This document shows, piece after piece, positions 7,490-10,290 of a stretch of DNA of 10,633 bases. Numbering within the stretch: the first letter of the stretch is position 1; each line of letters begins with the position of its first letter. Under the pieces are notes generated by a model. It saw only the letters and a list, made by a program, of their open reading frames with translations. It was not told the origin of the DNA and searched no databases. The position numbers and the translations under genes are program-made. This DNA comes from Bdellovibrionales bacterium (GTDB taxonomy: Bacteria > Bdellovibrionota > Bdellovibrionia > Bdellovibrionales > UBA1609), in assembly GCA_026713205.1 (NCBI GenBank), contig JAPOOY010000236.1, forward strand, positions 1 through 10,633. The letters are read 5' to 3'.

Positions 7490-9934
7490 ATGGCAGATCA
7501 AATTAAAGTTTATGAATTAGCTAAAACTCTGGGCGTTAAGAGTGTTGTTTTAATGCAGAAGATCCGCCGGGAATGGAAACTACCCGTTAAAAGTCATATG
7601 GAATCTCTCAGCCCTGAATTAGTTAAACAAATTGAAGAAAAATTCTCTTCGGAAAGAAAGAAATCATCCGGTGGAAAAACCGGAGACAAATCTCCCCGCA
7701 AAAAAACAGTAAAGAAGACGGCTTCAACGGCTAAGAAAAAAAAGCCGGTTTTAGGCACAGAAGCAGTTTCCGCAAAGACTGAATCACCTCCTTCCCCAGC
7801 CCCTGTTAAACGAATTATCAGAAGGCGAAAAGAAGAACAACTGGCGGCAGCTTCAGAGCCTGCGCCGGAAGTTTCCAAACAGTCGGAAAGTACGGCGCCT
7901 TCCCCTGTTGTTTCTGAAGGAGCACGCAAAACACCAGCGGGTGGCATTCGGTCCGATTTAGTCTCTGTCAGAAGCACCAGTCCTTTAGATGATTCTCAAT
8001 GGGGGACTCCGGTAGAGGCGGCAAAGAAAGCATCCCGTCGTCCTCTGGCGGAAAAGGAAGTGGAAGTAAAATTTCAGGCGGCAGATTTTCGAAAAAGGGA
8101 AGTGATCTTCCAGCCAAAGAAAAAACGAGTGGTCACTTCAGGTGACGTGAAAAAGACTCAAATTACCACGCCTAAGTCTCATAAAATGATTATTAAAATT
8201 TATGGAGAGATCTCTTTGGAGGATTTAGCCCGTCGTATGGGTATTAAGAAAAAATCCTTGATTCATAAATTAAATTCCCAGGGAGTGGATACAAAAATTG
8301 TGGAAAATTTGGATTTTGAAACAGTGGCTTTGGTTGTTCCGGAATGGGGATTTGAGGCAAAAAATGTCCAGAAAACAGAGAAAGAGCTTTTAGAGGAAAT
8401 CTCTCCAATGACTCAGGAAAAAGGAACAGCTCAGCTAAAACCTCCCGTAGTAACTATTATGGGGCATGTGGATCATGGAAAAACCACATTATTGGATACC
8501 ATACGCAAAACAAAAGTGGCCAAGGGGGAAGCGGGGGGGATTACCCAACATATTGGAGCCTACTCCATAGAGGTTGGGGGTCATACTATCACTTTTATTG
8601 ATACTCCCGGTCACGAAGCTTTTACAGCTATGAGGGCTCGGGGCGCACAGGCCACGGACATTGTTGTGATTGTGGTGTCTGCCGTTGACGGGGTGATGCC
8701 TCAAACGGTGGAGGCCATCAATCATGCAAAAACAGCTAAGACACCTCTTATTGTGGCTGTTAATAAGATGGATGTGGAAGGGGCCTCTCCCGATCGGGTA
8801 AAGCAGGAGTTGTCCAAACATGATGTTGTTCCTGAAGATTGGGGTGGTGACACGGCTTTTATTCCCGTATCCGCTTTAAAGGGAGAGGGGATAAAAGAAC
8901 TTTTGGAGCAGATACAACTTGTGGCGGAAGTGCAGGAGTTAAAGTGTTATCCGGAAAGCTCAGCTCAGGGAATGGTGATTGAAGCTTCCATAGAAAAAGG
9001 GCGTGGGCCTGTGGTAACCCTGCTCATGCAGGATGGCACATTAAAAGTTGGACAAGGTATTTTGGCGGGGCAGTTTACGGGTCGTGTTCGTCAAATGAGA
9101 AATGATCAAGGCCAGGCGCTTAAGGAAGCGGGTCCGGGATTTCCTGTGGAAGTTGTGGGTTTTCCTTCTCTGCCGGAAGTGGGAGATGTATTTTGTGCTG
9201 TTAAGGATGAGAAGGCCGCGCGGGAACTGATAAAAGCCAGACAGATTCAGCAATCAGAAGACAGCGATCAGGATCTTTCTGTTGAGGATCTTTTGGAAAG
9301 AACTCATGGAGAAAAAACCAGAGAATTAAAATTAATTGTGAAAGCGGATGTTTCAGGAAGTTTGGAAGCTTTGAAAAAGTCTTTAGAGCCTATTAAAGGG
9401 GAAGGGGTTTCTCTTCAGATTGTTCATTCCGCCGCAGGGGGAATTACGGAAAGTGATGTGTTGCTCGCTTCCACTATTTCCGGAACCATACTTGGTTTTA
9501 ATGTGCGTCCGGATGGAAAAGCGGGAAAATTGGCTCAGGATAAAAATATTGAGATTCGTTCTTACTCCGTGATTTACGAGTTATTGGATGATGTAAAAAA
9601 GATGATGATTGGTCTGCTTGCTCCTAAGACAGAGGAAGAGTCCCAGGGAGCTGTTGAAGTTAGGGAAATTTTTCATATCTCCAAGGTGGGAACAGTGGCA
9701 GGCTGTTATGTCACTCAGGGAATGGTCACCCGTAACAGCCTCATTCGTGTGGTGCGTGATGGTCGTTTAGTGCATGATGGAAAAATTTCCAATCTCAAAC
9801 GATTTAAGGAAGATACCAAAGAAGTTAAATTTGGTTTTGAATGTGGTATTTCTTTGGAAAGTTTTAATGACATCAAACCGAAGGATGTTTTAGAAGCCTA
9901 TATCAATAAAGAAGTCCGTCAAACAGAATTGTAA
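7490..9934 (+). CDS. infB: Translation initiation factor IF-2
   Basis: A GTPase that places initiator fMet-tRNA on the 30S subunit and promotes subunit joining. The 814 residues begin with an IF2_N domain (about 1-52), then a low-complexity Lys/Pro/Ala/Ser linker (53-232) and a second IF2_N-like domain (about 233-290). The G domain has all motifs: GHVDHGKT (325-332, G1), GGITQHIG (349-356, switch I), DTPGH (371-375, G3), NKMD (425-428, G4) and SAL (461-463, G5). Domains II (about 490-570), III (about 610-705) and IV/C2 (about 718-814, binding fMet-tRNA) follow. ATG 7490 gives the expected MADQIKVYELAKTLG N-terminus, though its ribosome binding site (AAGAGAG, 7477-7483) is weak. In many genomes rbfA and truB follow; here a 201-base palindrome begins 16 bases after the stop. 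Confidence 0.97.
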   Translation: MADQIKVYELAKTLGVKSVVLMQKIRREWKLPVKSHMESLSPELVKQIEEKFSSERKKSSGGKTGDKSPRKKTVKKTASTAKKKKPVLGTEAVSAKTESPPSPAPVKRIIRRRKEEQLAAASEPAPEVSKQSESTAPSPVVSEGARKTPAGGIRSDLVSVRSTSPLDDSQWGTPVEAAKKASRRPLAEKEVEVKFQAADFRKREVIFQPKKKRVVTSGDVKKTQITTPKSHKMIIKIYGEISLEDLARRMGIKKKSLIHKLNSQGVDTKIVENLDFETVALVVPEWGFEAKNVQKTEKELLEEISPMTQEKGTAQLKPPVVTIMGHVDHGKTTLLDTIRKTKVAKGEAGGITQHIGAYSIEVGGHTITFIDTPGHEAFTAMRARGAQATDIVVIVVSAVDGVMPQTVEAINHAKTAKTPLIVAVNKMDVEGASPDRVKQELSKHDVVPEDWGGDTAFIPVSALKGEGIKELLEQIQLVAEVQELKCYPESSAQGMVIEASIEKGRGPVVTLLMQDGTLKVGQGILAGQFTGRVRQMRNDQGQALKEAGPGFPVEVVGFPSLPEVGDVFCAVKDEKAARELIKARQIQQSEDSDQDLSVEDLLERTHGEKTRELKLIVKADVSGSLEALKKSLEPIKGEGVSLQIVHSAAGGITESDVLLASTISGTILGFNVRPDGKAGKLAQDKNIEIRSYSVIYELLDDVKKMMIGLLAPKTEEESQGAVEVREIFHISKVGTVAGCYVTQGMVTRNSLIRVVRDGRLVHDGKISNLKRFKEDTKEVKFGFECGISLESFNDIKPKDVLEAYINKEVRQTEL

Positions 9935-9949
9935 TCCATCAATTCCTAT

Positions 9950-9971
9950 ACCGATCGTGTTTGAAATTTTC
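9950..9971 (+). repeat. Outer terminal inverted repeat, left
   Basis: A 22-base arm beginning ACCGATCGTG, exactly complementary to 10129-10150. Its outer end is preceded by TAT (9947-9949). Confidence 0.85.
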
Positions 9972-9980
9972 CGTTTTTTT

Positions 9981-9997
9981 ATCTCAGCTTCAGAGAT
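9981..9997 (+). repeat. Small side hairpin in the left arm only
   Basis: ATCTC (9981-9985) and GAGAT (9993-9997) flank a seven-base loop. The segment has no counterpart in the right arm, so it would project from the main stem as a branch. It is either a later insertion in the left arm or a deletion from the right arm. Confidence 0.55.
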
Positions 9998-10027
9998 GCC
10001 TTTCAAGGCCAAAGGGAGATCAAAAGT
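9996..10027 (+). repeat. Inner 32-base inverted repeat, left
   Basis: A 32-base perfect match to the reverse complement of 10087-10118, beginning ATGCCTTTCAAGG. Perfect conservation over this length argues for recent origin or continuing selection on pairing. Confidence 0.85.
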
Positions 10028-10086
10028 TCAAACATGCGTTTTGCCACAGAGCGACTTCCAGTCGCTACTGTGTCAAAGCCGAACTC

Positions 10087-10118
10087 ACTTTTGATCTCCC
10101 TTTGGCCTTGAAAGGCAT
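10087..10118 (-). repeat. Inner 32-base inverted repeat, right
   Basis: The complementary arm of 9996-10027, with no mismatches. Confidence 0.85.
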
Positions 10119-10128
10119 GAACAAAACC

Positions 10129-10150
10129 GAAAATTTCAAACACGATCGGT
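10129..10150 (-). repeat. Outer terminal inverted repeat, right
   Basis: The complementary arm of 9950-9971, ending CACGATCGGT and followed by TAT (10151-10153). Confidence 0.85.
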
Positions 10151-10261
10151 TATAAAAATCCCTATTATAAGGATTTCTTATGCGGCTATGACTCTGTGGG
10201 TCGGTAAGGGATGGCTTTAAATGAGCTTTCAAGGATTTCAAAATTCCTTCATGAATCCGGT
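10151..10261 (+). other. Non-coding spacer between the palindrome and the zapA promoter
   Basis: No reading frame of useful length or recognisable RNA gene is seen. AAATCC (10156-10161) and GGATTT (10171-10176) form a weak six-pair hairpin without a T-run. Together with 9935-9949 and the palindrome, this makes the gap between infB and zapA 382 bases. Confidence 0.5.
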
Positions 10262-10290
10262 TTGACGGAAAAGACCTGTACAGTTATACT
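10262..10290 (+). promoter_or_regulatory. Near-consensus sigma70 promoter for zapA
   Basis: TTGACG at 10262-10267 (5 of 6), a spacer of exactly 17 bases and TATACT at 10285-10290 (5 of 6). The expected start near 10297 gives a leader of about 20 bases containing GGAGG (10304-10308) before ATG 10317. This is the best promoter in the window and makes zapA independent of infB transcription. Confidence 0.65.

Follow-up and report, generated by a model that had tools for sequence, protein, structure and literature searches.

A high-copy palindromic element behind infB in a Bdellovibrionales bacterium, with putative IS630-like MITE ends and a conserved, probably strand-specific core

A palindrome between infB and a ZapA-like ORF

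The window, i.e. the whole stretch of 10,633 nucleotides from a Bdellovibrionales bacterium analysed here, carries a threonine-dehydratase-like gene (partial), cmk, rpsA, sppA, a rhomboid gene, rimP, nusA, infB and an ORF which was assigned to ZapA with a score exactly equal to the Pfam cut-off. infB ends at 9934, and between it and the ZapA-like ORF lies a palindrome. Its inner inverted repeat (9996-10027 and 10087-10118) comprises 32 nt at 100% identity, its outer inverted repeat (9950-9980 and 10120-10150) 31 nt at 94%; by reading, the outermost 22 are perfect. The plus-strand RNA of a 241-nt stretch folded at -119.4 kcal/mol compared with a shuffle mean of -43.6 (z -18.8; none of 200 shuffles was as good). 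Both strands of the palindrome fold far better than shuffles, and the apex folds further. The palindrome is genuine and goes far beyond what chance would give. Repeat search and folding thus agreed with the initial annotation, which had described a near-perfect palindrome with a 32-base inner repeat, a 22-base perfect outer repeat and a paired apex. It had also noted that no transposase is encoded inside, and indeed no ORF of at least 80 aa was found within or reaching into 9949-10152. Judged from the window and from related copies, the element probably extends over 9949-10152 with flanking TA dinucleotides at 9947-9948 and 10153-10154. The right end contains one extra T (GGTTATA in place of GGTATA). 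A TAT target duplication had been suggested; from the sequence and the related copies TA is more likely. The features are, with the evidence in brackets:

9947-9948, no strand: putative left TA target copy (sequence; TA from the nested empty site of a sister copy)
9949-9980, plus strand: left terminal inverted repeat (TIR) and outer arm, TACCGATCGTGTTTGAAATTTTCCG... (sequence, repeat search, 374 genome matches of the end pattern)
9981-9995, plus strand: left part of the outer internal loop, which contains a small side hairpin, ATCTC...GAGAT (sequence and fold)
9996-10027, plus strand: left inner arm, type A, of the perfect 32-nt inverted repeat (arms differ among copies and are mostly self-complementary)
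10026-10031, minus strand: 3' strand of the core helix P2, YYGARC on the minus strand (alignment and pairing counts)
10032-10043, minus strand: conserved loop motif CAAAACGCATGT (the genome has 115 occurrences of the exact core pattern, which is present in 13 of 368 genomes of the phylum)
10044-10073, minus strand: apical stem-loop (sequence variable, pairing kept, minus strand mostly folding better)
10074-10086, minus strand: conserved loop motif GAGTTCGGCTTTG, including the P2 5' strand GTTCGG
10087-10118, plus strand: right inner arm (repeat search)
10120-10152, plus strand: right TIR and outer arm with the extra T near the end (sequence, repeat search, end pattern)
10153-10154, no strand: putative right TA target copy (sequence)

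At 10254-10269 of the window, AATCCGGTTTGACGGA looks like part of an end of this family, and it forms an imperfect pairing with 9915-9930 at the 3' end of infB. It may be a relic.

The position behind infB was compared in nine relatives with infB, the ninth of which lacked a readable 3' side. In none of the eight others was the element present (no core and no end at up to 4 mismatches within 600 nt); five of the eight are informative because G003, G005 and G025 are without any exact core. In G016 a short end-like fragment, TACCGAATCGGTA, was seen by eye some 350 nt downstream of infB. Only 5 of the 46 core-like matches in the window and the sample of its genome (G000) overlap an ORF of at least 80 aa in DNA of which such ORFs cover 85.5%; overlap was counted irrespective of reading frame, and 12 of the 46 matches lie at contig edges. 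The 29 matches with two neighbours are situated in 16 tandem, 7 divergent and 6 convergent gene pairs. In the tandem pairs the folded strand has the direction of the genes in 7 cases and the opposite one in 9, which gives no indication of a regulatory role. Of 18 copies in G004, 3 overlap ORFs and 2 are at edges; the 13 classified ones are 8 convergent, 4 tandem and 1 divergent, and all 4 tandem copies oppose the genes, a small sample leaning one way. A terminator-like site was not found at the element. At the gathering score no Rfam model matched over the element and only two tRNAs were detected in the flanks, which removes a known RNA family from consideration; matches below threshold were mostly to miRNA models. 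The start of a small protein on the plus strand (ATGCGTTTTGCC) was discarded as well, as the two halves are in different frames in the window and, among the listed copies, the apical part differs in length by non-multiples of three. The G038 repeats described below have an open frame. The insertion behind infB would be incidental and the palindrome is not a feature of infB, even if it may affect the 3' end of infB in passing.

Copies, ends and a candidate source of transposase

The genome-wide search proposed in the initial annotation returned over a hundred related copies. With a 221-base query at least 86 matching pieces were obtained in the window's genome (40 of 280 candidates scored), and 41 pieces were retrieved with a 75-base core query, all but one at 93-100%. 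The central 28-mer occurs at 43 places (up to 3 mismatches; control 0), the 23-base end pattern at 374 (up to 3 mismatches; reversed control 0) and the exact two-sided core pattern 115 times (reversed control 0). When ends were paired in 264.6 kb of contigs, two main unit sizes emerged: units lacking the core mostly measure about 65-125 bp and those containing it about 205-300 bp. Both groups have exceptions, and the loose core regex of this survey also picked up a few chance matches. The 20 contigs sampled from the window's genome were long and mostly known beforehand to bear matches, and their density is not a genome estimate. Two units (L144 10660-10870 and L152 7071-7237) have TATACC...TTTGAA ends around a different long hairpin with no core motif. 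In these units the same MITE ends carry another, second cargo.

For an empty-site test the flanks of 105 candidate units were joined with one TA and compared with the fetched loci. Seventeen rows spanned the junction; by reading, 8 were self or neighbourhood matches, 7 were weak and 2 were empty sites. One unit (L064 1409-1629) is located inside the apex loop of another copy, and its empty counterpart in L150 is 90% identical with a single TA at the junction. The other (L140 168-275 compared with L144) matched at 81% and gap-free, but with TG at the junction. TA is the probable target of the TIRs, and it is clean in one case.

The domain DDE_3 was present in 1 of 12 genomes searched, G025. The protein is an IS630-family transposase (NCBIfam NF033545, 208 bits, cut-off 100), and the best 10 of 304 plasmid records related to it are IS630 transposases of about 40% identity. 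On one side its gene (L216 1377-2286) directly adjoins TATACCGATCCGGTTTGAGTTTT, an end of the element's family; a second end was not found in the 3.4-kb locus, and the gene looks like a decaying parent element. G025 itself has 86 end matches and 0 exact cores. In the window's genome (a MAG, 85% complete) and in six other core-rich genomes searched no DDE_3 gene was detected. In a protein search of 140 genomes of the order for a full-length IS with both ends, the G025 gene was the sole result apart from a weak match in G096. The IS sharing these ends, for which the initial annotation had suggested looking, has a candidate counterpart in the gene beside one end in a relative, and none was found in the window's genome. 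Collections of phages, plasmids and, with the exact pattern only, viral contigs contained no match, and a phage or plasmid origin was set aside. Taken together, many copies, shared ends, a probable TA target, the lack of a gene inside and the candidate IS630-type partner in a relative favour the early proposal of a MITE or palindromic repeat mobilised in trans: the element looks mobile and non-autonomous, with the enzyme supplied in trans, and the MITE reading holds.

The core is separable from the ends

The exact core pattern is present in 13 of 368 genomes of the phylum. All 13 are from the order, which contributes 140 genomes, and they represent 8 genera and 3 families. A core model search with up to 32 candidates scored per genome found it in 12 of the 140. 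Exact cores and end matches are distributed as follows:

Window's genome (G000): 115 exact cores, 374 end matches
G002: 8 exact cores, 246 end matches
G016 (same family as the window's genome): 19 exact cores, 55 end matches
G025: 0 exact cores, 86 end matches
G001: 45 exact cores, 0 end matches
G004: 14 exact cores, 0 end matches
G135: 30 exact cores, 1 end match
G031: 8 exact cores, 6 end matches

G015, G038 and G042 have one to three exact cores each. In the genomes outside the list above 0-3 end matches were counted, approximately the level of the reversed control. In G004, 10 of 18 copies are in hairpins of 112-121 bp with a different end, GAAATACTTTGTATAAG, identified with a loose regex that matched 81 ends and, in the reversed control, 42. 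Going by these sequence patterns, core and ends are separable.

Several further arrangements of the core were seen. In each of the three G118 copies (L116, L128, L171) the core is surrounded, by eye, by a second one that is partly decayed and oppositely oriented, both within a single hairpin. In L064 a whole unit is inserted in the tip of another core. G038 contains two tandem arrays of 132-bp repeats (L107 5265-5696 and 11384-11815) which start with a complete core motif; both motif halves are kept only in the first unit of each array in the fetched loci. In G031 (L098, near 1637 of the reverse strand) the apical part of a core is interrupted by another inverted repeat, GTCATTCCGGCGCAGGCCGGAATCCAG.

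The core consists of a two-sided loop motif near the tip, on the minus strand GAGUUCGGCUUUG...CAAAACGCAUGU. In an alignment of 39 chosen copies the minus strand reads GAGUUCGG[C/A]UUUG, a variable stem-loop, CAAAACGCAUGU and YYGARC, and the loop is nearly invariant. GUUCGG paired with YYGARC forms the helix P2. RNAalifold recovers P2 and the apical stem; a short UUUG/CAAA helix between the two was added by hand. Among 780 P2 cells from 131 copies in 13 genomes, which were found using a pattern including the P2 5' strand and share ancestry, 481 are Watson-Crick, 277 G-U, 4 A-C and 18 other. P2 varies on one side only, G-C to G-U or U-A to U-G, and the other strand would show A-C mismatches at these places. 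Of 110 distinct per-genome apical stems, 81 are more stable on the folded strand, 11 are weaker and 18 are tied. Cells of the core fold are paired to 97.3% compared with 94.9% in shuffles, and 20 changed on both sides compared with 6.2. These two-sided changes occur in the apical stem only and not in P2. Further pair types numbered 16 against 14.4 in shuffles, and 49 of 500 shuffles were as high, so this is not outstanding. Because of G-U pairing in P2 and the strand preference of the apical stems, one strand, either as RNA or as single-stranded DNA, is probably what selection sees.

The arms below the core behave differently. In 55 well-paired copies of the own genome the arms are 98.0% Watson-Crick over 24 pairs, a value somewhat flattered by the prior removal of copies below 18 of 24 pairs and by an offset that was fitted, copy by copy, to the very arms being scored. 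Swapping the right arms between those 55 copies lowered pairing to 66.6% (maximum 69.9% in 200 shuffles). For 104 copies of all genomes the values were 95.7% and 47.1%. For the 7 copies of G001 92.3% was observed, and one shuffle was higher (94.6%). Changes were also counted within the three arm types of the own genome: 197 cells had a different Watson-Crick pair through changes on both sides, 29 were changed on one side only and 3 on both sides to an unpaired state. Part of the two-sided excess stems from joint shifts of both arms. Of 124 copies, 21 with fewer than 20 of 26 pairs were left out, including all 4 of G135 with bulged arms missed by the ungapped count. Two-sided against one-sided changes were 30 and 2 in type A, 155 and 16 in type B and 12 and 11 in type C. 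The excess is carried by types A and B, and neither kind dominates in type C. G-U is rare in the arms (48 of 2678 cells) and common in P2; therefore, arms and core are under different rules. In the accessible text of Monttinen and Loytynoja (2022; PMC8794818) template switching is described as creating and repairing hairpins. Such a mechanism would account for the matched arms. The conserved strand-specific core and the matched evolution of the arms are what is new here.

Interpretation and comparison with known systems

We propose that the palindrome is a high-copy, non-autonomous element that combines IS630-like MITE ends with a strand-specific folded core and with arms matched by template switching, and we put the probability of this reading at roughly 60%. 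The outer ends, which are shared among copies, would be the TIRs of an IS630-like MITE inserting at TA, as in the one clean case. The element would be, or would have been, moved by a transposase in trans, to which the single remnant in a relative points. The minus strand of the asymmetric loop motif near the tip would fold into a specific helix-and-bulge structure. This folded strand, RNA or single-stranded DNA, may be recognised by a factor and selected along with the element. The arms below the core would stay complementary because one serves as template for the other at replication. Counter-points are that the mover was not seen where the copies are, i.e. the core-rich genomes searched had no DDE_3, that a single TIR system cannot explain all copies in view of the cores without these ends in G001, G004 and G135, and that the support for P2 is all one-sided. 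P2 without two-sided change, the TG at the second empty site, the pre-selection of arm copies and Y1_Tnp in three low-copy genomes are the reasons why we do not go higher.

Cores with other ends, the concentric cores of G118 and the nested unit of L064 suggest a bolder alternative, which we regard as tentative and on balance doubtful. The core might be an independent module, read as a folded single strand (DNA or RNA) by a mobility enzyme and spreading into the tips of long hairpins, among them MITEs of unrelated origin, in addition to its own hairpins; the arms of the host hairpins would evolve in concert. If true, the core would be a hairpin-borne hitchhiker of a new kind.

It is unlikely that we are dealing with an ordinary IS630-type MITE in which the core is the inherited filler of one MITE lineage and has no function of its own. 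The ends, the probable TA target, the copy number and the lack of an orientation bias in the own genome are all MITE-like, units with the same ends and no core do occur, and P2 lacks two-sided covariation. Yet the exact core occurs in 13 genomes of three families while the ends differ, G-U pairing is strand-biased, and there are genomes having cores without these ends.

A REP/REPIN-type element moved by a Y1 transposase (RAYT/TnpA-REP) which reads the hairpin as single-stranded DNA is quite improbable. Such an enzyme would be expected to act on a hairpin that, like this one, folds on a specific strand and has conserved bases in its loop, and Y1_Tnp matches were obtained in the window's genome (one) and in G015, G038 and G042 (two each). 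However, none was found in the core-rich genomes G001, G002, G004, G016, G031 and G135, and a RAYT partner, absent from six of seven core-rich genomes although present in three low-copy ones, was rejected. Further, with its length of about 200 bp and its long TIRs bordered by TA, the unit does not resemble REPs, for which 20-40 bp are given in the accessible text of PMC3733652. The sole Y1_Tnp match in the window's genome (L208 1-354, contig C72) is a gene for an IS200/IS605-type Y1 transposase, truncated where the contig ends.

A functional regulatory or structural RNA serving adjacent host genes (terminator, 3'-end stabiliser or RNase III site), in line with the role in infB mRNA that the initial annotation had envisaged, is very improbable: the very stable fold, strand-specific pairing, 41 of 46 core-like matches without ORF overlap and the G004 sample (8 of 13 classified copies convergent, 4 of 4 tandem copies opposing the genes) would fit, and against this and against any terminator or infB-linked RNA stand the many copies in place of a single one conserved in position (which had been named as the sign of a structural RNA), the absence behind infB in all eight readable relatives, tandem orientations of 7 to 9 in the own genome, mixed gene-pair contexts, and the failure to find either a terminator-like site or, at the gathering score, an Rfam match over the element.

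Bacteria commonly carry small palindromic repeats; why these remain palindromic and what recognises them is mostly open. With dozens of related arm pairs in one genome, selection and template switching as sources of complementarity can be tested against each other by counting. A nearly unchanged core in three families, carried in hairpins with different ends, provides a defined bait for a hairpin-handling protein. The literature searched contained no paper combining Bdellovibrio and miniature inverted-repeat, and was otherwise general.

IS630/Tc1-mariner-type bacterial MITEs are well known for the features that the element shares: short and gene-free, with TIRs, a probable TA target and many, mostly intergenic copies. 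In addition, one end is common to the element and to an IS630-family transposase gene in a relative. Unlike these MITEs, the element has a conserved strand-specific core that is also found with other ends, and its inner arms differ between copies and are mostly complementary within each copy. Integron attC sites are recombined by IntI through a folded strand, and the element may resemble them. REP/REPIN sequences with their RAYTs are likewise high-copy extragenic palindromes in which a specific folded strand may be recognised; the element differs in its much greater length, its TA-flanked TIRs and in that no Y1_Tnp was found in six of seven core-rich genomes. Like Rickettsia palindromic elements, palindromic repeats of about 150-200 bp, it is present in many copies in a small genome. 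Those elements are noted for insertions inside genes in the accessible text of a review (PMC10969869), whereas here 5 of 46 core-like matches overlap an ORF of at least 80 aa. Finally, multi-base two-sided changes which keep stems paired are also a characteristic of the template-switched hairpins in the accessible text of PMC8794818; that study deals with RNA genes, whereas the stems considered here are the arms of a repeated mobile element.
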